Shown here piece after piece: positions 6,822 to 37,481 of a stretch of DNA of 39,866 bases (the first letter of the stretch is position 1; every line of letters begins with the position of its first letter). The notes beneath the pieces were generated by a model. The model searched no databases and was not told the DNA's origin. It saw only the letters and a program-made list of their open reading frames with translations. Position numbers and translations under genes: made by a program. The stretch comes from an uncultured Halieaceae bacterium (GTDB lineage: Bacteria > Pseudomonadota > Gammaproteobacteria > Pseudomonadales > Halieaceae): assembly GCA_913051825.1 (NCBI GenBank), contig CAJXCR010000010.1, forward strand, positions 1 to 39,866. The letters are read 5' to 3'.

Positions 6822-9263
6822 TTATCGGCGCATCTTCTCTCCTGAAGGATCATAAAGCGGCTTGAGAGTGGCCTTAGCAGCATGACGTTCGGTAGCAATC
6901 TCTATTTCCACTTTAGACTTTAATAGCGTTTCTTCGGAAAGATTAGGCAGGTTCACGTAACCCATGCCAATTGAAGATCCAATAGAATGTCCATACATAG
7001 CAGATGTTAAGTATCCAACGATAGCTTCATTTACTACGATAGGTTCATTGTGATAAAGGAATAGATCGGGATCTTGCAATGCAAATTGTACTAGACGTCT
7101 TTCAGTTTTCTTGGAATTAGCTGACCTTAGAAAAGCATCGCGACCAATAAAATCACTCGCATCAGGTTTGGCAGTGAACGAAAGACCAGCTTGGTGTAAA
7201 TTGTCTTCGGTACCAATATCATGGCCCCAATGGCGGAATCCTTTTTCTAAACGAAGGCTATTTACAGCATGCAAACCAACATTTGATAAGTCAAAAGCCT
7301 TCCCTGCCAGCTGAATATCTTTTAAGACTTTGACAGCGCTTTCGCTAGGGATAAAAATCTCCCATCCCAATTCACCCACATATGACAATCTTTGTATCCA
7401 AACGGTTTTTCCATTTAGCTTGGAAAATTTACCCGTGCCAAAATTAAACGCCTTTGAGGTTAGGTCTGATTCAATCATAGGCTGTAACAAATCTCTGGAA
7501 TTTGGGCCTTGTAATGCCAAGCAAGCGTAGCTCATAGTTAGATCAGTCAATTTTACATCGGGTTCAAGATGATGTTTCAATCTCCACCAATCTCGATTCA
7601 AGGATCCAATCCCCGTTATAATCCAGAAGCGATCTTCCTCTAATCTTGCGATAGTCAGATCTGCTTCAATCCCACCTCGATCATTTAACCACTGCGTATA
7701 AATCACCTTGCCGACTTCAACATCTATATTTGCGCAGCTCAGTCGCTGTAAAGTAGGCAGGGCACCAATACCTGATATTTCAAACTTTCCAAAAGATGAA
7801 ATATCGTAAAGGCCTACTGATTCGCGCACTGAAGTATGTTCTGCGGCCGCGCAGTCCAACCAGTTTTGTTTTCTGTAGGTATATTTGTAAGCGGGGTCAA
7901 TTCCGTTATGTGCAAACCAATTAGGTCGCTCGTAACCACCCACCTCTCCGAAGCAGGCGCCTTGATCAGCAAGCTCTTGATGCAGTGGTGATTTCCAGAG
8001 ATTTCTTGCAGTTTTATATTGATAGAAGGGCCAATGCATTGCATACGTGTGTCCCAAAGCCTCGGGAATGCGAGCTTCAACATAATTTTGTGTCGTTTGC
8101 ACAGAATTATTTCGTCTCACATCTGTCTCCGTAACTTCGCCTGACGGATATCCGTCAACTATCCAGTCTGAAAGAATTTTGCCTAGGCCGCCAGCAGCGG
8201 CGATACCTTTCGAATTCATGCCACACGCTACGAAAAGATTGTTAATTTCAGGGACTGGACCCATCAGATGCAAGTTGTCATTAGTGAAGCTTTCAGGGCC
8301 ATTAAAAAATGTTCTAATGCCAACCGAACCAAATTGAGGAAATGTCTCCATGGCATTTAATAGATATGGTTCGATGTGTTCCATTTCAGTTGGGAATTCA
8401 TCAAAACAAAAATCGTCCGTTATTCGTGACATTGGACAACCGATGGCATTTTTTTCAAACCAACCTACCAGCATTTTTCCGGCGTCTTCTTTGAAATATA
8501 TTTCTCTATCGAAATCTCTTAAGACCGGGCGTGGAGTGAGATCGGGGATTTCTTCTGTTACTACGTAATAGTGCTCACACGCATATAGCGGTAGATGGAT
8601 ATTTAGAGATGCCGCAATATCTCTTGACCATAAGCCTCCTGTAAGGATGACTTTTCTGCAGTTAATCTTTTCTTCACCGACTGTTACTCCAATTACTTTG
8701 GATTTGTCAGTCAAAATTCGATTCACCTTGGCAGATTCAATTATCTTTGCTCCTCTATTTTGAGCTCCTTTTGCGAGTGCCATCGTTGTGTCAATCGGGT
8801 TAGTTTGTCCATCCTTCTCAATATGTAAAGCACCAAGAATACCCTCAGAGTTGAGTCCGGGATAGAGTGCACTAATTTCATTAGGGCCAAGTATTTCTGA
8901 TTTAACACCAAATACTTTCGCCATGGACGCATTGCGCTTTAACTCTTCCAGTCTCTCTTTGTTTCTAGCTAGAGAAAGGCTGCCAATTTGTTTATACCCA
9001 GTAGCCTGTCCCGTCTCTTCTTCAAGGGTTGCGTAGAGTTCATGGCAGTATTTAGCGAGGTTCGTGAGGGTGGGAGTTGGCCAGAGCATGCTGACTAATC
9101 CAGCAGCATGCCAGGTTGTGCCACAGGTGAGTTGTTTTCTCTCTAGCAGGACTACATCATTTATCCCTCGCTTCGTAAGATGATAAGCAAGGGAGCAGCC
9201 TACTATTCCACCTCCAATAATGACAATTTCGGCTTCAGATGGCAGTAGATTCTGGGTACTCAA
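6822..9263 (-). CDS. Dimethylglycine/sarcosine dehydrogenase-type flavoprotein with GcvT domain (paralogue 1)
   Basis: 813 residues in the DAO-FAO_M-GcvT-GcvT_C arrangement. An N-terminal Rossmann motif (IVIIGGGIVGCSLAYHL, residues 13-29) precedes GTTWHAAG, whose H52 corresponds to the histidine that covalently holds FAD in mammalian DMGDH. The DAO domain runs to about 370 and a linker FAO_M domain to about 430. The folate-binding GcvT part includes LNDRGGIEADLTI with the conserved aspartate at 535, and GcvT_C ends with LKPLYDPSGEKMRR. Members oxidatively demethylate dimethylglycine, sarcosine or related N-methyl compounds and pass the carbon to tetrahydrofolate. Translation probably starts at TTG 9263, two bases after the stop of paralogue 2, with AAGG about ten bases upstream. 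It is the last gene of the mttB-dmgdh-dmgdh operon. The exact N-methyl substrate is unknown. Confidence 0.87.
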   Translation of the reverse strand: MSTQNLLPSEAEIVIIGGGIVGCSLAYHLTKRGINDVVLLERKQLTCGTTWHAAGLVSMLWPTPTLTNLAKYCHELYATLEEETGQATGYKQIGSLSLARNKERLEELKRNASMAKVFGVKSEILGPNEISALYPGLNSEGILGALHIEKDGQTNPIDTTMALAKGAQNRGAKIIESAKVNRILTDKSKVIGVTVGEEKINCRKVILTGGLWSRDIAASLNIHLPLYACEHYYVVTEEIPDLTPRPVLRDFDREIYFKEDAGKMLVGWFEKNAIGCPMSRITDDFCFDEFPTEMEHIEPYLLNAMETFPQFGSVGIRTFFNGPESFTNDNLHLMGPVPEINNLFVACGMNSKGIAAAGGLGKILSDWIVDGYPSGEVTETDVRRNNSVQTTQNYVEARIPEALGHTYAMHWPFYQYKTARNLWKSPLHQELADQGACFGEVGGYERPNWFAHNGIDPAYKYTYRKQNWLDCAAAEHTSVRESVGLYDISSFGKFEISGIGALPTLQRLSCANIDVEVGKVIYTQWLNDRGGIEADLTIARLEEDRFWIITGIGSLNRDWWRLKHHLEPDVKLTDLTMSYACLALQGPNSRDLLQPMIESDLTSKAFNFGTGKFSKLNGKTVWIQRLSYVGELGWEIFIPSESAVKVLKDIQLAGKAFDLSNVGLHAVNSLRLEKGFRHWGHDIGTEDNLHQAGLSFTAKPDASDFIGRDAFLRSANSKKTERRLVQFALQDPDLFLYHNEPIVVNEAIVGYLTSAMYGHSIGSSIGMGYVNLPNLSEETLLKSKVEIEIATERHAAKATLKPLYDPSGEKMRR

Positions 9264-9265
9264 TG

Positions 9266-11680
9266 TTAAGACCTTAGTTTTATATTGTCAGGGTCATAGG
9301 CAGGTTTTAGTTCCACATGAGCGTCTCTGAGTCCAGCTGCAGTTTGTACCTGAAGTCGTTCGTTCTGAGCTACAAGCTCTGGATGAATATAGGCGAAAGA
9401 CAAACTAAATCCAACACGGTGGCCAAATCCTCCACTGGTTGTTAGTCCGGCCAGCTCGCCATTACTGTATACCGCTTCATTTCCATAACATTCGGCGGCC
9501 ACGTCGTCATCAAATGCGAGATACGCTAACTTAGTATCAAGGCCTTTAGAAAGACGCTCATTGAGATTTTCTTTACCGATGAAGTCTTTTTCCAAACTAA
9601 TAAATCGAGTCATATCAGCTTCAAGTCCGCTGATTTCTTCAGTGAATTCAGTCCCCCAGGCTCTATATGCTTTTTCCATTCGAAGGGAGTTAAAGGCGTA
9701 TCCCCCAAAGTGATGCAGTCCGAGCTTTTCTCCAACTCGAAGTAATGACTCGAAAATAGATAACATTTGATATCGTTCCATATGTAGCTCGTAGCCAAGT
9801 TCTCCAGCATAAGAGACTCTGATAACTCTGACAGTCGCACTGTCTATTTTTACTGATTTACAAGTCAGCCAGGGAAAAGCATTATTTGACAAATCTTCAT
9901 CGGTAAGTGGTTGGAGAATTTCTCTAGCGTTAGGACCAGTTAAAAGAACTGCTGCTAATTCCTCAGTTTGATTATTTATCCGAACTTCGTATGTGTCGGC
10001 GTGATGATTCATCCATTGAATATCTCTTAGCTCAGACCCAATTGGTCCTACTAGATAGAAATGATTTTCCGTTATTCTCGTGATCGATTGCTCGGTTAAG
10101 ATTCCGCCATTGGCGGCATGAAATAATGTTAGTCCTAGCCGACCATCACTGTCTGGTAGTTGGTTGCAGGAAAGTTTATCTAAAAATAAGGCGGCATCTG
10201 TTCCAGTGATTTCAAATTTTGAAGATCCGGATATATCAATTATTCCTGCAGCGTCTCTTACATTTTGACACTCAGATGCGACGACTTCGTGAGTTGAACT
10301 TCTGGTCCATGTGGGTTTATCTTGTATATGACTTTTTTTAAACCAAAGTGGTTTTTCAAATCCCGAATTAACTCCGTGGACGGCTCCTCTATCAGCTAGT
10401 ATTGAGTAAAGTGGGCTGGTTCTTTTTATTCTCCCGTGATGTCTGTTTTCATTTGCACCCACTGCGGTATACATTACTTCATAGGATTCAATTGCTTTAG
10501 TAATACAGTAATCTTTATCTGCCCAAGGTCCAAATCTCCGACTATCTAAAGGAGCCATATTCAGTTCGGTTTGTCCATGCACCATCCATTGAGCTAGAAA
10601 CTTGCCTAAACCACCTTGCGCGATTCCAATGCTTGATCCGCACAGATTCCAGAAATTATTCAATCCTGACTGGGGGCCAACCAAGGCGTTATCGTCTGGG
10701 GTGTGAGTGATCGGTCCATTGATAATAGTTTTTACGCCGACTTCCGAGAAGATAGGCATCCTTTCCATGCACCGATCGAGAAATGGCATGAGTCTTTCCA
10801 GATCACCTTCAAATAATTCTCTATCGAAGCTCCAGTCCATGCCGCCTAGAGCCCAAGGCTTTGATCCACTGGTCTCATAAGGTCCTATTAGAAGGCCTTT
10901 TCCTTCTTGACGTAAATAGGCGGCACAGTAAGAGTCTCTGCATACCGGCAGTTCTGTTTCACGTGTTTCAAGTGAAGGATGACTTTCAGTCACTAAATAC
11001 TGGTGTTCCAGATTTATTATAGGAACTGATACCCCCACCATTTTCCCTACTTCAGGAGCGAAGCAGCCTGCTGCATTAACAACATGTTCAGCTGTTATCG
11101 TTCCTTTCTCAGTCACTACCTCCCATTTGCCTGACCTGGTGTAGTTGATCTCTATTACTCGATTAAATCTCTCTATCTGCGCGCCTTTTTTCTTGGCAAG
11201 CTGAGCCAGAGGCGTTACCACTGAAGTAGGATCGACATGCCCGTCATTTGGTGTATATGCAATTATTCTCGCGCTCTTTAAGTCTAGAAATGGGTGGATT
11301 TTTGAGGCTTCTTGTTTAGAAATTATGTGGAAGTCGCAGGGTACATTTTTAGCGCGGCTCTCCAGATGACGAAACCACTCTTCCTCGAGTTTACTGTAGC
11401 CAATTCTAAGGCTGCCAGTCTGGTGAAACGTGGATTGATCTCCTGTAAGTCTTGGCAGGATTTCGTTATAAAGCTTGATGGAGTAATCATGGATCTTTGC
11501 AACTGTCATGTTGCCGATAAAATTTGAGGCTAAGCCCGCTGCATGCCAGGTGGAGCCGCTTGTTAACTCTCCTTTTTCTATAAGGATAATATCTGTCCAA
11601 CCCTCTTCGGCTAAATGATAAAGTAGGTTGACGCCTAATGAGCCTCCGCCAACTATTGCGACTTGAACATGGGACTTCAT
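9266..11680 (-). CDS. Dimethylglycine/sarcosine dehydrogenase-type flavoprotein with GcvT domain (paralogue 2)
   Basis: 804 residues with the same domain order as the next gene: VAIVGGGSLGVNLLYHL at residues 7-23, GSTWHAAG with the putative flavin-linking H46, a DAO domain to about 370, FAO_M, then GcvT and GcvT_C ending LKPAYDPDNIKLRS. The two proteins are clear but diverged paralogues. In the folate-domain loop where paralogue 1 has GGIEADLTI, this protein has GGILTEQSI, so the conserved aspartate aligns with E530. That change could alter tetrahydrofolate chemistry. It lies 25 bp after mttB and 2 bp before paralogue 1. The products may form a complex or act on successive methylation states (for example dimethyl then monomethyl), which is inference. 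Confidence 0.86.
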   Translation of the reverse strand: MKSHVQVAIVGGGSLGVNLLYHLAEEGWTDIILIEKGELTSGSTWHAAGLASNFIGNMTVAKIHDYSIKLYNEILPRLTGDQSTFHQTGSLRIGYSKLEEEWFRHLESRAKNVPCDFHIISKQEASKIHPFLDLKSARIIAYTPNDGHVDPTSVVTPLAQLAKKKGAQIERFNRVIEINYTRSGKWEVVTEKGTITAEHVVNAAGCFAPEVGKMVGVSVPIINLEHQYLVTESHPSLETRETELPVCRDSYCAAYLRQEGKGLLIGPYETSGSKPWALGGMDWSFDRELFEGDLERLMPFLDRCMERMPIFSEVGVKTIINGPITHTPDDNALVGPQSGLNNFWNLCGSSIGIAQGGLGKFLAQWMVHGQTELNMAPLDSRRFGPWADKDYCITKAIESYEVMYTAVGANENRHHGRIKRTSPLYSILADRGAVHGVNSGFEKPLWFKKSHIQDKPTWTRSSTHEVVASECQNVRDAAGIIDISGSSKFEITGTDAALFLDKLSCNQLPDSDGRLGLTLFHAANGGILTEQSITRITENHFYLVGPIGSELRDIQWMNHHADTYEVRINNQTEELAAVLLTGPNAREILQPLTDEDLSNNAFPWLTCKSVKIDSATVRVIRVSYAGELGYELHMERYQMLSIFESLLRVGEKLGLHHFGGYAFNSLRMEKAYRAWGTEFTEEISGLEADMTRFISLEKDFIGKENLNERLSKGLDTKLAYLAFDDDVAAECYGNEAVYSNGELAGLTTSGGFGHRVGFSLSFAYIHPELVAQNERLQVQTAAGLRDAHVELKPAYDPDNIKLRS

Positions 11681-11705
11681 AAATTATCTCAATAGAAAAA
11701 TAGTG

Positions 11706-13253
11706 CTAATTTTCGCGTCCCATCGACTTGCGATCTAAGAAAATTGGGAAGGCTTCGCGAATATCTCTGTCGATAGTATCATCAATATGTTTGGGAAAAT
11801 AAGAAGACAGAATCTTTTCTTTCTCTTTGACTGCTTTTAGAAGTGGATCTGGTTTTTTGGCGTCCAACCATTCGCTAGGGCTATGTCGATCAAAATAATC
11901 TGGGTAAATGTATTCGCTTTGCATGACGTCTAAGGTTTGATCAGATCCTAAGTAATGGCCCTTGCCATTTAGGCAAACATCTCGCATGACATCGAAGCCC
12001 AAGGTTTTATCATTTACAGTAATTCCTTTTGTACTCCTGAGCGATGCTCCGAGGATGTCATTATCTAGCAGGAGGCTTTCGGGGCAGGCGCCGAGAAGGC
12101 TCGCATACATTCCAGCAGACTCATAGATTATATTTGCTCCAGCAAGTGCAGCACTAGAAACGTTAGCGGCGTGTTCCGCCCCTCCTTGAAAATCTGGCAG
12201 TTTGGAGTCAGACATTCCGCATCCTGTGCCAGTCGGTAGATTTAAGTTGAGTCCAACTTGAGCACATGCGGCTGATAGCAAGCCTTGTTCTGGTGATCCT
12301 CCGCTCATCGCTCCTGTCCGCAGATCAGATACGAAAGGCCATGTTCCTATTATGGCGGGCGCGCCTGGTTTAATTGCATTGACATACACGAGTCCGCCCA
12401 AGCATTCAGCCCAAGCTTGGGACACAGTGCCGGCGAGGCATGGTGGCGCGGTTGCGCCGGCCTGTCCCGCTGAAAGCAGTAAAACGGGCATGCCACCTTC
12501 AACCGCGATTCTTAAACATTCTAATGACTCTTCGGCAAATTTCATGGGCGGCACTACGAAGCAATTAGATTGGCTGACAAATGGTCTTGATCTCCATGCT
12601 TCCTCATCACCAGCGATCATGTGCAGCATCTTTAATGTTTGCTGCAGGTGAGCTGCTTCGGTCCAGCTAGATCCAACGTGTTTAGCTGTGCCCATAACCG
12701 CGTTGTAGGTTGTATTTAAATCCATTGCGTAGCTGTCAGAAATATCTCGCAGGACGCAAGTTCTCTGAAACATGTGGATGTGCTCGCAGGTATCTGTGAT
12801 TCTCGCCATGTCGTAAAGATCTTTTGCGGTGGAATCTCGATAAGTTTTGTTTATGGGATCCGCTATCATTCCCGCTGCGCCTGCCGTAGAGAAGTGCACT
12901 CTGCTTCCACTTAAATCAAGATCATATTTTGGATTCTGTCCATGCAGAACTAGGTCTTTCGTGCTGGATGCAATGGCGTTTTCTACTACTTCCCTTGGCA
13001 TTCTCAACCGACCATCATTTCCCAATTTAGCTCCAATAGACTGGCAAGTTTCTATGCAATGGGGCGTTGGCTGACTAAAACCAATTTCGGACAGAATCTT
13101 GAAAGAATTCTCGATAACATCGTCGACCTGATCCTCGCTGAGCGGTTTAAATTTCCCCCCACTTTCGCCTGCATGGACCGGCTTAAGGTTATCTGATAGT
13201 GGCGCGGAGCGTATTGCTACGCGAGATTTTCTACCTCCAGATCTTCGTGACAT
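11706..13253 (-). CDS. MttB-family (trimethylamine/betaine methyltransferase-like) protein, non-pyrrolysine
   Basis: 515 residues matching the MttB TIM-barrel family. Visible blocks include HFSTAGAAGMIADP, a central FVSQSNCFVVPPMKFAEE, PVLLLSAGQAGATAPPCLAG, GTWPFVSDLRTGAMSGGSPE and LPTGTGCGMSDSKLPDFQGG. The reading frame is uninterrupted, so it belongs to the non-pyrrolysine branch, whose characterised members (MtgB and relatives) transfer methyl groups from glycine betaine or other quaternary amines to a corrinoid protein. No corrinoid (MttC-type) protein or its reactivase is in the window. The first gene of its operon, it has a very strong ribosome site (AAAGGTGATC) just before the ATG. Two DMGDH-type genes follow, consistent with demethylation of a methylated amine into the folate pool. 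Confidence 0.87.
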   Translation of the reverse strand: MSRRSGGRKSRVAIRSAPLSDNLKPVHAGESGGKFKPLSEDQVDDVIENSFKILSEIGFSQPTPHCIETCQSIGAKLGNDGRLRMPREVVENAIASSTKDLVLHGQNPKYDLDLSGSRVHFSTAGAAGMIADPINKTYRDSTAKDLYDMARITDTCEHIHMFQRTCVLRDISDSYAMDLNTTYNAVMGTAKHVGSSWTEAAHLQQTLKMLHMIAGDEEAWRSRPFVSQSNCFVVPPMKFAEESLECLRIAVEGGMPVLLLSAGQAGATAPPCLAGTVSQAWAECLGGLVYVNAIKPGAPAIIGTWPFVSDLRTGAMSGGSPEQGLLSAACAQVGLNLNLPTGTGCGMSDSKLPDFQGGAEHAANVSSAALAGANIIYESAGMYASLLGACPESLLLDNDILGASLRSTKGITVNDKTLGFDVMRDVCLNGKGHYLGSDQTLDVMQSEYIYPDYFDRHSPSEWLDAKKPDPLLKAVKEKEKILSSYFPKHIDDTIDRDIREAFPIFLDRKSMGREN

Positions 13254-18565: not shown

Positions 18566-18606
18566 CTAATTTGTAATAGGATGTTTATCTGATTTTAGTA
18601 TCTAAC

Positions 18607-18610
18607 AGGA
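18607..18610 (+). promoter_or_regulatory. Shine-Dalgarno AGGA that selects the CTG start of the amine oxidase
   Basis: AGGA (within ACAGGATAG) ends seven bases before the CTG at 18618. It is the only ribosome-site-like sequence between the in-frame stop at 18603-18605 and the twin-arginine codons, and its spacing fits initiation at CTG 18618. Confidence 0.45.
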
Positions 18611-18617
18611 TAGATTT

Positions 18618-20027
18618 CTGTCATCACTGACTCGAAGAGATGTTTTAGCATTTGGCGTTTCAAGTTTGACTGCAAGTGCGCTGAACTTAGAGGTTGCTGC
18701 GGCAGCTAGGCGAGTAATAGTTATCGGAGCAGGGCTCTCTGGGCTTAGAACTGCAATGCTCTTGCAAAAAATTGGATTTGAGGTTCGTGTCGTTGAAGGT
18801 CGCAATCGAGTCGGTGGTCGGGTTTTTACGTTGGATCATCTATCTGGGCATCCAGAAGCAGGTAGTAATGTAATTGGTCCAAACTACGGTCGTATTTTAG
18901 ATGTAGCGAATTCACTTAAGCTGGCAATCGAGGAATCACCTCGACCTTTTGCGTCTGGCTATATCATTAATGGCGAAAAGATCTCTCGAGAATCTTGGCC
19001 TGCTTCATTACAAAACCCTTTTCCTTCTGACTTAAAAAAAATAACACCAGATAGAATTGTCGCAACACTTCTTAAAAAGAATCCGCTTCAGGGTACATCG
19101 GATTGGCGAAAACCAGTAAATAAAGATCTGGATGTTTCAGCCATAGATGTTTTTCGAGCCAGTGGTTTATCTAATGAAGCGCTCAAACTCATTGATAGTA
19201 ATAATAGTTATGGAAATAGTTTGTCTGAAACGTCCGTATTAGCGCTTTACAGAGTGTCGCGCTCCTATGAGCGTGCGATGTCCATGAAGAAGAAAGTTTT
19301 TGAGGTAGAAAATGGGAATATGCGTTTACCAGAAAGGATGGCTAGTTCACTTTTAGATCCACCCATACTAGGGGAACAAGTTATTTCAGTAAATCGATCC
19401 GACGGTTTTACTCGAGTGAAAACCTATTCGGGTAAAGAAATTCTCGGTGATGCAGTTGTTTTTGCGCTGCCCACTTCAGCGCTTCAAAAGATACATATTG
19501 AGCCGCAATTACCGTCGGATCAGGCTCAAGCATTCGAACAACTTTCGTATCACAAGATTTTACAGATTCACCTCCTCGCTCAAGAGCTATTTTGGAAGTC
19601 GCCCCAAGATTATGCTGGTTACTGGACGAATGGACCTCTGGGAAGAATATTCACGAGACCAATTCCTGATTCTGAAAAAGCTAACATCACTATCTGGATA
19701 AACGGCGATTCCTGCGATCAGTTTGTATCGCAGTCCAGGGAGCAAGCAATTTCAAATATATTAAGTATCTACTATAAGCAGGTGCCTGAGGCGCGCGGCA
19801 AGGTGACTTTCGGTGAGTATATTGACTGGATTACTAATCCTTTCAATGAGGGTGCTTGGGCGATATGGGGACCCGGTGATATTGGTCGTTATGCGGATTT
19901 ATTGTATAGACCTTCAGGACGATATTTTTTTGCCGGAGAGCATACGGCTTATTCTAACGCTGGAATGGAAGGAGCTATGGAGTCGGCAGATCGCGTTGTG
20001 ATAGAAGTGTTGAGAGCATTGTCATGA
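18618..20027 (+). CDS. Tat-exported flavin amine oxidase (monoamine oxidase family)
   Basis: The body is a flavin amine oxidase: VIVIGAGLSGLRTAMLL dinucleotide motif followed by VEGRNRVGGRVFTLD, and the C-terminal FFAGEHTAYSNAGMEGAMES flavin motif. The first conventional start codon (TTG 18666) would begin the protein inside a hydrophobic stretch. The frame is open from 18606 and encodes SSLTRRDVLAFGVSSLTASA, an excellent twin-arginine signal (TRRDVLA, hydrophobic core, then AAAA). No ATG, GTG or TTG exists upstream of the arginines, so CTG 18618 with AGGA upstream is proposed as the start (469 residues). The stop overlaps the ATG of a cytochrome c gene by four bases. By analogy with NicA2/CycN, the enzyme probably oxidises an amine in the periplasm and donates electrons to that cytochrome. 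Family is firm, start and acceptor are inferred. Confidence 0.82.
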   Translation: MSSLTRRDVLAFGVSSLTASALNLEVAAAARRVIVIGAGLSGLRTAMLLQKIGFEVRVVEGRNRVGGRVFTLDHLSGHPEAGSNVIGPNYGRILDVANSLKLAIEESPRPFASGYIINGEKISRESWPASLQNPFPSDLKKITPDRIVATLLKKNPLQGTSDWRKPVNKDLDVSAIDVFRASGLSNEALKLIDSNNSYGNSLSETSVLALYRVSRSYERAMSMKKKVFEVENGNMRLPERMASSLLDPPILGEQVISVNRSDGFTRVKTYSGKEILGDAVVFALPTSALQKIHIEPQLPSDQAQAFEQLSYHKILQIHLLAQELFWKSPQDYAGYWTNGPLGRIFTRPIPDSEKANITIWINGDSCDQFVSQSREQAISNILSIYYKQVPEARGKVTFGEYIDWITNPFNEGAWAIWGPGDIGRYADLLYRPSGRYFFAGEHTAYSNAGMEGAMESADRVVIEVLRALS

Positions 20028-20449
20028 CTCGTTTACTAACGACTGTTTTTGTGACAAGTTTATGTAGTGCATTATTCTCACCTTATCCTAGATCCGAAGG
20101 TGATGTTTTAAGAAAAGATATGGAATCTATCCGGTCTATCTCTTTAAATAAGGGAGAGCAGCTATTTTTTGTTTGTGAAAGCTGTCATTCGCTAAACGAG
20201 GTTGGTCAAGGATATAAACTTGGACCGAATCTGTATGGGATTCTCGGTCGCCCGGCAGCGAGCAGAGAAGATTATGACTTTTCAGAAGAGCTTAAGCGAT
20301 CAGATATTGTTTGGACTCGCGAGAGTCTTATAACTTGGATAGTATCAACGGAAACTATGGTGCCGGGAACATTTATGCTTTACGAAAATTTTCTCAACGC
20401 CCAAGAAGTTAATTCATTAGTAAATTACATTATAGAAAAAGTGGAATAG
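20024..20449 (+). CDS. Periplasmic class I cytochrome c
   Basis: 141 residues. An N-terminal hydrophobic stretch (LLTTVFVTSLCSALFSP) should direct export. One haem site is present, CESCH at residues 51-55. The following LGPNLYGILGRPAA segment and a distal VPGTFM, whose M118 is the likely sixth ligand, place it close to mitochondrial-type cytochrome c/c2/c550. Its ATG overlaps the amine oxidase stop (ATGA), so the two are translationally coupled. The obvious role is electron acceptor for the flavoprotein, delivering electrons to a terminal oxidase. A 165-bp gap without a gene follows. Confidence 0.9.
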   Translation: MTRLLTTVFVTSLCSALFSPYPRSEGDVLRKDMESIRSISLNKGEQLFFVCESCHSLNEVGQGYKLGPNLYGILGRPAASREDYDFSEELKRSDIVWTRESLITWIVSTETMVPGTFMLYENFLNAQEVNSLVNYIIEKVE

Positions 20450-35061: not shown

Positions 35062-36060
35062 GTGGGCCAAAATATGCAGGTTTGTTTATCTAAGGATCCA
35101 GTCGGCATCCCAGTGGTGGATGATTTTGAAATAAAAACTTCACCAATCCCAGACGCTGCTGATGATCAAGTGTTATGTCGCACCCTTTACCTCTCTCTTG
35201 ATCCATATATGAGAGGACAGATTGCAGGAAGGCACCTGTCAGGATCTGTGGCACCAGGTGATTTAATGCGAGGTGAGACTATTAGTGAGGTTGTAAACGA
35301 TGGAAGTGGTTTTGTCGCTGGACAGTTAATTAGATGTATGGGCGGATGGCAATCGTATTCGCTTCAAGACCCTACTATGATAGCGCCGGTTAGCTCCGAG
35401 ATCAGTCCATCTAGCTTTGCTCTTTCAGTATTAGGTATGACTGGATTGACTGCCTACGCCGGGATGGTCTGGCAAGCAGAAGTTGGAAAAGGGGATAACG
35501 TTTTTATTCCCTCTGTCACTGGAGCCGTTGGATCGGTGGCTGCCCAGATATGTATGACACGGGGAGCTCGGGTGGTTGGCATGGCTGGTGGACCCGAAAA
35601 ATGTTTGGGAGCGCTGGAATCAATTGGTGTCGATGCATGCATTGACCGTTTTGAGGAAAATCTGACTGAAAAGCTAGAGGAATACTTTCCCGATGGTATC
35701 GATGTGTACTTTGATTTAGTAGGAGGCACTCTTCTGAGTGACGTGTGTCAAAGGTTGGCTAACTATGGACGCATCGTTCTTTGCGGTTTGATGGCTGAAT
35801 ATAATCGAAAAGAGCGAGAACCTGGACCCTCTCCAGGATTGCTTATTGGTAAGAGAGCACAAGTGTCAGGTCTCGTGGTGTATGATTATGAGGCACGTCG
35901 AGACGAGTTTATTGATTCGCTCTTACCATTAATTCTTAACAAGACAATTACTCAGCAAGAAGATGTTACTTTTGGATTATCAAATGCACCCGAAGCCTTT
36001 TGTCGTCTGATGAGAGGCGAGAATTATGGAAAGGTTATAGTCGATCTTACTCAGGAGTAG
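35062..36060 (+). CDS. Zinc-independent MDR family NADPH oxidoreductase (second copy)
   Basis: 332 residues from GTG 35062. The GroES-like domain includes LYLSLDPYMRGQ, a hallmark of the CurA/PTGR/NADP-dependent alkenal reductase group, followed by the Rossmann domain with NVFIPSVTGAVGSVAAQICM and GIDVYFDLVGGTLLSDVCQ. Such enzymes reduce alpha,beta-unsaturated carbonyls. It is related to but distinct from the MDR at 32886. The SSS symporter gene begins eight bases after the stop, so the two are an operon (the symporter's ribosome site lies at the end of this gene). The glycine-rich segment is VTGAVGS where the neighbour has AAGGVGS, a small variation. Confidence 0.87.
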   Translation: MGQNMQVCLSKDPVGIPVVDDFEIKTSPIPDAADDQVLCRTLYLSLDPYMRGQIAGRHLSGSVAPGDLMRGETISEVVNDGSGFVAGQLIRCMGGWQSYSLQDPTMIAPVSSEISPSSFALSVLGMTGLTAYAGMVWQAEVGKGDNVFIPSVTGAVGSVAAQICMTRGARVVGMAGGPEKCLGALESIGVDACIDRFEENLTEKLEEYFPDGIDVYFDLVGGTLLSDVCQRLANYGRIVLCGLMAEYNRKEREPGPSPGLLIGKRAQVSGLVVYDYEARRDEFIDSLLPLILNKTITQQEDVTFGLSNAPEAFCRLMRGENYGKVIVDLTQE

Positions 36061-36068
36061 CATCATCG

Positions 36069-37481
36069 ATGGATAAGGTGACGATAGTTGCCATCACGCT
36101 TGTCAGCTACAAGCTTTTGTTGGTTGCGATTGGTTTTTGGGCGTCTAGGCGAACCCATGATGAGAAAGATTTCTTTTTAGGTGGTCGGCGATTAGGCCCT
36201 TTTGTAGCAGCCTTAAGTTATTCCAGTAGTTCTTCTTCCGCGTGGACATTACTGGGGCTTAGCGGTGCAGCTTATACTCTAGGTGTGTCCGCAATTTGGC
36301 TTGTTATCGGTTCTCTGATCAGCATGTTAGTTGCTTGGTACTGGATTGCACCACGTTTAATGGACAGATCTAGAGAACGTGATCAATTGACAATTACTGA
36401 TTTTCTACTAGATGACTCTACTGGTGTTATTCGAGCCGTAATGTTAGTGAGTATCTCCCTAATTATCTTGATTTCCTTCGTTTTTTATATAGCAGCACAG
36501 TTTCAGGGAGCTGGTAGTGCATTTTCTGCAGCCTTCGATTTCTCTTTAAATACCAGTATGCTTCTCGGTGCATTCATTATCATGTTATATACCTTAATGG
36601 GTGGCTTTTGGGCTGTGAGCGTTACAGACACGGTTCAAGGTTGCTTAATGGCATTTGCAGCCATTCTAATGCCTATCGCTGCACTACTTCAGGTAGGTGG
36701 CGTTTCAGGTTTTCTAACAGGTCTATCTGAGGTGAGTAGCGTCGATCAACTTAGCTTTTCTTCTGGCAATGTTGGCCTTTTGGCGATTGGTTTGGCGCTT
36801 GGTGGAATGTCTATTGGATTTGGCACCTATGGCCAACCTCATTTGTTGATTCGCTTTATGGCATTGAGGGACAAGAAATCTCTTGAGCAGGCCAGACTGA
36901 TTACTATTTTTTGGTATGCACTAGTATTCTTTGGAATGTATTTTTTAGGCTTGGTTGGCCACGTATTGCATCCAATGACAGACAATCCAGAGAATATTTT
37001 CTTTCTGTTGACAGACAGTTTGTTCTCGACAGTTTTGGGCGCGGTGTTGCTGGCTACGGTCTTATCCGCGATCATGTCCACAGCAGATAGTCAGTTGTTG
37101 GTGGCAGCTAGCACCATTGCGCATGATATGCGAGCTGGTGGTGGTAGTATTTCTGTTCTTTTTGTTTCTAGGGTCAGCATAGTAATTTTGGTATTTACTT
37201 CGCTGGCACTAGCTACGCTAGTGCCCCAGCAAATTTTTGATAGAGTGTTGTTTGCCTGGGTTGCATTAGGTGCAGCTTTTGGGCCGTTATTATTTATGCG
37301 ACTTGCGGGGTTTGAATTTGCGCGATGGGCACCTATTTTCTCAATATGGGTGGGGTTTGGTAGCGCGGTACTTTTGTATTTGTTGCCAAGCAATGTTCCA
37401 GGTTCATTGGATGATCGATTGTTGCCATTCTTTATTGCTTTATTTGCACTGTTGCCTTGGACTAAAAAACCGGCAAAATGA
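36069..37481 (+). CDS. Sodium:solute symporter (SSS family)
   Basis: 470 residues from ATG 36069, which has AGGAG at 36053-36057; a longer frame from 36000 would begin inside the MDR gene and is disfavoured. About thirteen membrane helices are apparent. Early motifs FLGGRRLGPFVAALSYSSSS and WTLLGLSGAAYTLG are the SSS/PutP-like helix 1-2 region. The later ATVLSAIMSTADSQLLVAAS (helix 8 area) contains the conserved serines that line the sodium site in PutP. It imports an organic solute with Na+. The next gene, a GlcD-like flavoprotein, follows by 47 bp, so the transported compound may be a 2-hydroxy acid or alcohol oxidised by it. Confidence 0.88.
   Translation: MDKVTIVAITLVSYKLLLVAIGFWASRRTHDEKDFFLGGRRLGPFVAALSYSSSSSSAWTLLGLSGAAYTLGVSAIWLVIGSLISMLVAWYWIAPRLMDRSRERDQLTITDFLLDDSTGVIRAVMLVSISLIILISFVFYIAAQFQGAGSAFSAAFDFSLNTSMLLGAFIIMLYTLMGGFWAVSVTDTVQGCLMAFAAILMPIAALLQVGGVSGFLTGLSEVSSVDQLSFSSGNVGLLAIGLALGGMSIGFGTYGQPHLLIRFMALRDKKSLEQARLITIFWYALVFFGMYFLGLVGHVLHPMTDNPENIFFLLTDSLFSTVLGAVLLATVLSAIMSTADSQLLVAASTIAHDMRAGGGSISVLFVSRVSIVILVFTSLALATLVPQQIFDRVLFAWVALGAAFGPLLFMRLAGFEFARWAPIFSIWVGFGSAVLLYLLPSNVPGSLDDRLLPFFIALFALLPWTKKPAK

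Follow-up and report, generated by a model that had tools for sequence, protein, structure and literature searches.

A Tat signal combined with an adjacent cytochrome c gene predicts flavin amine dehydrogenases, which are poor with oxygen and use a cytochrome (PMC12224317). Such enzymes work in the periplasm. The cytochrome c-using dehydrogenases of the flavoprotein amine oxidoreductase superfamily (NicA2, Pnao and the clades of PMC12224317) and the enzyme analyzed here belong to the same amine oxidase fold family and have a Tat signal in common, predicted in our case. They also share an adjacent Sec-type cytochrome c gene and the occurrence of cytochrome-fused relatives, as in subclade 3F; the fusions of subclade 3F carry Tat signals, whereas some of the fused relatives found here have Sec- or lipoprotein-like N-termini instead. 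Those systems start with ATG, GTG or TTG, while the gene described here would start with CTG. CUG accounts for 0.024% of bacterial starts and has 0.86% of the strength of AUG (sources quoted in PMC11497404). In the rare bacterial genes known to be CUG-initiated (PMC11497404; PMC5622118), as at this locus, CTG stands where relatives have a standard start; unlike in those genes, the start proposed here is argued from comparison alone. The locus was studied within a window, that is, the whole 39,866-nucleotide stretch of DNA that was analyzed. Among solved structures, the best sequence match of the window enzyme was to human MAO-A (2bxr, 107 bits), a member of the same family that sits in the mitochondrial outer membrane and works as an O2-using oxidase; unlike it, the window enzyme has a predicted export signal and is paired with a cytochrome c. 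NicA2, which we take to be the protein of structure 5ttj, was distant from the window enzyme in sequence (phmmer 49 bits, C-terminal half).

By direct reading, the enzyme frame opened after the TAA at 18603-18605 and remained open to the TGA at 20025-20027, giving 473 codons from 18606 (features are collected in Table 1). The codons after the TAA were CAG GAT AGA TTT CTG (18618) TCA TCA CTG (18627) ACT CGA AGA GAT GTT TTA, and the same frame continued with GCA TTT GGC GTT TCA AGT TTG (18666). No ATG, GTG, TTG, ATT, ATC or ATA was found in frame between the TAA at 18603 and CGA AGA, and the only plausible initiators before the arginine pair (18633-18638) were CTG 18618 and CTG 18627. The original prediction, whose coordinates were all correct, had held that ATG, GTG and TTG are missing before the arginines and that standard gene callers would begin at TTG 18666 and lose the Tat signal. 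Direct reading agreed on the first point; on the second, callers limited to these three codons would cut the signal off, and the mechanical ORF list placed the start of the enzyme gene at TTG 18666. A start in another frame, joined through one indel, was rejected, as the nearest upstream ATG (in aggATGtttatctga) runs into a stop after three codons.

Table 1. Features of the enzyme locus, in window positions.
Feature	Position	Strand	Remarks
AGGA, weak Shine-Dalgarno-like element	18607..18610	+	7 nt before CTG 18618
CTG	18618..18620	+	Most likely start of the predicted Tat precursor; near-cognate, with SD-like element, in the start region of relatives
Second in-frame CTG	18627..18629	+	Alternative start, less likely
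Predicted Tat signal peptide (TRRDVLA, hydrophobic core, AAAARR)	18630..18713	+	Homologous RR segments in most relatives
TTG	18666..18668	+	First standard start; inside hydrophobic core; gene caller's choice
Flavin-containing amine oxidase-family enzyme (PF01593)	18618..20027	+	Pfam E 7.2e-45; motifs intact
Small c-type cytochrome (CESCH), Sec-like signal	20024..20449	+	PF00034 E 2.7e-7

Genome contigs and whole-genome searches supplied the relatives; once duplicates had been removed, 118 distinct sequences had a readable 5' region. The contig scan returned no relatives when the enzyme was used as a single-protein query, and 80 when an alignment was the query. The RR segment on which the original prediction depended was retained in nearly all relatives: an in-frame twin-arginine motif was scored 22-50 codons before the FAD motif in 109 of the 118 sequences, the window included. 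A signal profile was then built from the segments of 108 relatives, with the window left out. Among the window's 856 open frames it put the window segment at the top, with a weak score (E 0.04), and none of 5000 shuffles of the same residues outranked it. The general Tat models Pfam PF10518 (TAT_signal) and NCBIfam TIGR01409 gave no match to the window segment. Because the profile ranks the segment first yet at E 0.04, and the general models are silent, the upstream segment is, judged by its sequence, a real Tat signal, though not a textbook one. The description 'textbook' in the original prediction was thus dropped, and a real, conserved, in-frame signal was what stood. Tat machinery was present in the genome: a TatC gene (E 1.1e-68) along with two TatA/B genes on contig C37. 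A standard start was available in each of the other Tat-like genes detected in the same genome, and no habit of CTG starts was seen among them.

A separate break was observed in the relative L043 at 2494-2620 (equivalent to L002 1385-1510, gamma proteobacterium NOR5-3), where the Tat signal ORF, reading MQEHSKRRDRRRILQAIGG...AAATRR, and the enzyme body lie in different frames. On the reading of these frames, the break is either a frameshift mutation or a sequencing error, and annotation would drop the Tat signal here too.

Start positions were compared across the RR-bearing sequences. An ATG, GTG or TTG lay at or before the RR motif in all 109 except the window and one relative, L045; a scripted no-start flag for L121 came from choosing the wrong RR, and the ATG of L121 precedes the true motif. 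ATG was present in most relatives and GTG or TTG alone in about twelve; the start column thus varies, and its codon is often a weak one. The usual start lay 34-42 codons before GAGLSG. When the orthologues were aligned upstream, as the original prediction had suggested, CTG 18618 fell at the relatives' start position: it sits at -36 codons, the same as the ATG of L123 (M-NSALSRRQLL vs. L-SSLTRRDVL in the window), and L177, the nearest relative at about 50% identity, has a GTG start at -38 codons. The genus mates G001 and G002 lacked the enzyme gene, and a search of the family of the nearest relative for more copies added none. The favored reading, held with reasonable probability, is that CTG 18618 is a genuine, weak start of a Tat-exported flavin amine dehydrogenase.

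Initiation at TTG 18666, the first standard start codon, would give a cytoplasmic enzyme whose FAD-binding fold is still complete. This codon lies at -20 codons, however, within the hydrophobic core and at a column where relatives show no conserved start, and its SD energy is only -2.7. The conserved partner of the enzyme is, moreover, an exported cytochrome c, and the upstream RR segment would have no reason for conservation if translation began at 18666. A start at TTG 18666 is accordingly rated as highly improbable.

The AGGA that had been placed seven bases before CTG 18618 was confirmed at 18607-18610. Its pairing energy with the anti-SD, which was assumed as the assembly's 16S matches do not reach the 3' end, was -4.9 kcal/mol vs. 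a mean of -5.3 across 24 window genes; among random 20-mers, 33% were equal to or better than -4.9 kcal/mol. Shine-Dalgarno evidence for CTG 18618 is weak and adds very little. The CTG and the AGGA share a weak, non-significant hairpin (accessibility 0.25; z 0.66), and mRNA structure around CTG 18618 is not special. The promoter scan gave no candidate on the + strand. The second CTG, at 18627, is in frame, nine bases downstream and one codon from the twin arginines; translation from it (LTRRDVL...) would leave a very short n-region, comparable to relatives with just two residues before RR (L111, GTG). The sole SD-like element, however, ends 16 bases upstream of 18627, which is too far, and the spacing of AGGA fits 18618 better; a start at 18627 was considered very unlikely.

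The start at CTG 18618 was also weighed against the loss of a standard start, whether by a consensus error in this draft assembly or by a point mutation that arose recently, after which an otherwise intact gene would be poorly or not expressed. One substitution turns a standard start into CTG, and the assembly is a draft (2.3 Mb, 160 contigs, 88% complete). Switches to CUG between close relatives were counted for 2 of 61,358 AUG, 1 of 5,080 GUG and 1 of 2,468 UUG starts (PMC5622118); because such switches are very rare, an error that removed the start has a comparable prior probability. Against this loss, no frameshift or stop was found over the 473 codons, the overlapping cytochrome c gene is intact, CTG 18618 lies mid-contig, and L045, a separate relative, has the same CTG replacement. 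A lost start is regarded as a serious alternative, though a somewhat unlikely one.

L045 likewise has no ATG, GTG or TTG before its arginines. The first standard codons of L045 (TTG, GTG) fall within the beta-strand leading to the FAD loop, and an enzyme begun at either would be broken. In an alignment begun at the stop of the upstream gene and free of gaps, CTG 2917 of L045 occupied the position of GTG 2974 in its sister L047 (75% identical). In the tree, the window and L045 were separate CTG lineages, each next to a GTG relative, with the pairing of the window and L177 only moderately supported. As the window had been chosen for its missing start, L045 alone adds evidence, at about 1 in 107. 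Measured against the 0.024% CUG rate, this corresponds to a chance of roughly 2.5% by our own arithmetic, a value that is indicative only, since the 0.024% probably reflects annotation seldom allowing CTG. L045, too, comes from a metagenome-assembled genome, and its CTG may for that reason also be an error.

In the window enzyme, the FAD motif VIVIGAGLSG and the C-terminal FFAGEHT..GMEGAMES were both intact. The ATG of the cytochrome gene overlaps the enzyme stop by 4 bases (ATGA; TCATGACT). Across 120 loci with enough flank, a cytochrome c was next to the enzyme gene in 31 and fused to it in 3; these 34 cytochrome-linked loci are essentially the closest relatives, and the more distant ones have no cytochrome c. 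The fused forms (L004, L049 and L051) had Sec- or lipoprotein-like N-termini (e.g. LVGAC, VSGC) and no RR, which suggests that export is kept though the route changes. c-type cytochromes mature outside the cytoplasm. The enzyme must therefore be exported to meet its partner, and a start at 18666 would preclude export. The original prediction had named an amine oxidase; from its gene context and predicted signal, the protein is more probably a periplasmic cytochrome c-dependent amine dehydrogenase. As an enzyme it adds one more ordinary member to a kind already known.

The sequence itself, the homology of the signal, the placement of CTG in the relatives' start column, the cytochrome c partner and the Tat genes were observed directly; initiation at CTG, export and electron transfer are what we infer. 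Translation would begin at CTG 18618, read as fMet, and the signal peptide made would be fM-SSLTRRDVLAFGVSSLTASALNLEVAAAA-. TatABC would export the folded, FAD-loaded enzyme, the signal would then be removed, and the periplasmic enzyme would hand the electrons gained by oxidizing the amine to the Sec-exported cytochrome c of the overlapping next gene. As CTG initiation is inefficient, the enzyme would be made at low level. Whether CTG starts recur here (window and L045) as a selected brake, keeping the supply of an exported flavoprotein low, was also considered, and such selection is quite unlikely.

Should CTG serve as the start, automatic annotation would strip such genes of the Tat signal and record a periplasmic enzyme as cytoplasmic. 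Because cytochrome-using amine dehydrogenases have been searched for by way of their Tat signal (PMC12224317), CTG-started members would then be missed. Two CTG cases in one family would also allow natural CTG initiation to be tested cleanly at the bench. The useful lesson lies in the annotation error and in the possible recurrence of CTG starts.

Further observations were made around the enzyme genes. In the Luminiphilus group (L032-L040, L112-L125), a strongly conserved block, GTTTGAGAAAAGATATAAACATATGACAATATG, was found ~40-110 nt before the start; it is probably a promoter, very near the start codon. Within the window, ORF translations inspected by eye at 6822-13253 included two genes (about 800 aa each) resembling dimethylglycine/sarcosine dehydrogenases, and a trimethylamine methyltransferase-like protein was seen by eye in the same interval. 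These amine genes hint at methylated-amine catabolism and at a possible substrate class of the exported enzyme. In L002 and L003, the gene immediately after the enzyme-cytochrome pair resembles a sodium:solute symporter; a similar gene is present in the window at 36000-37481, about 16 kb off.
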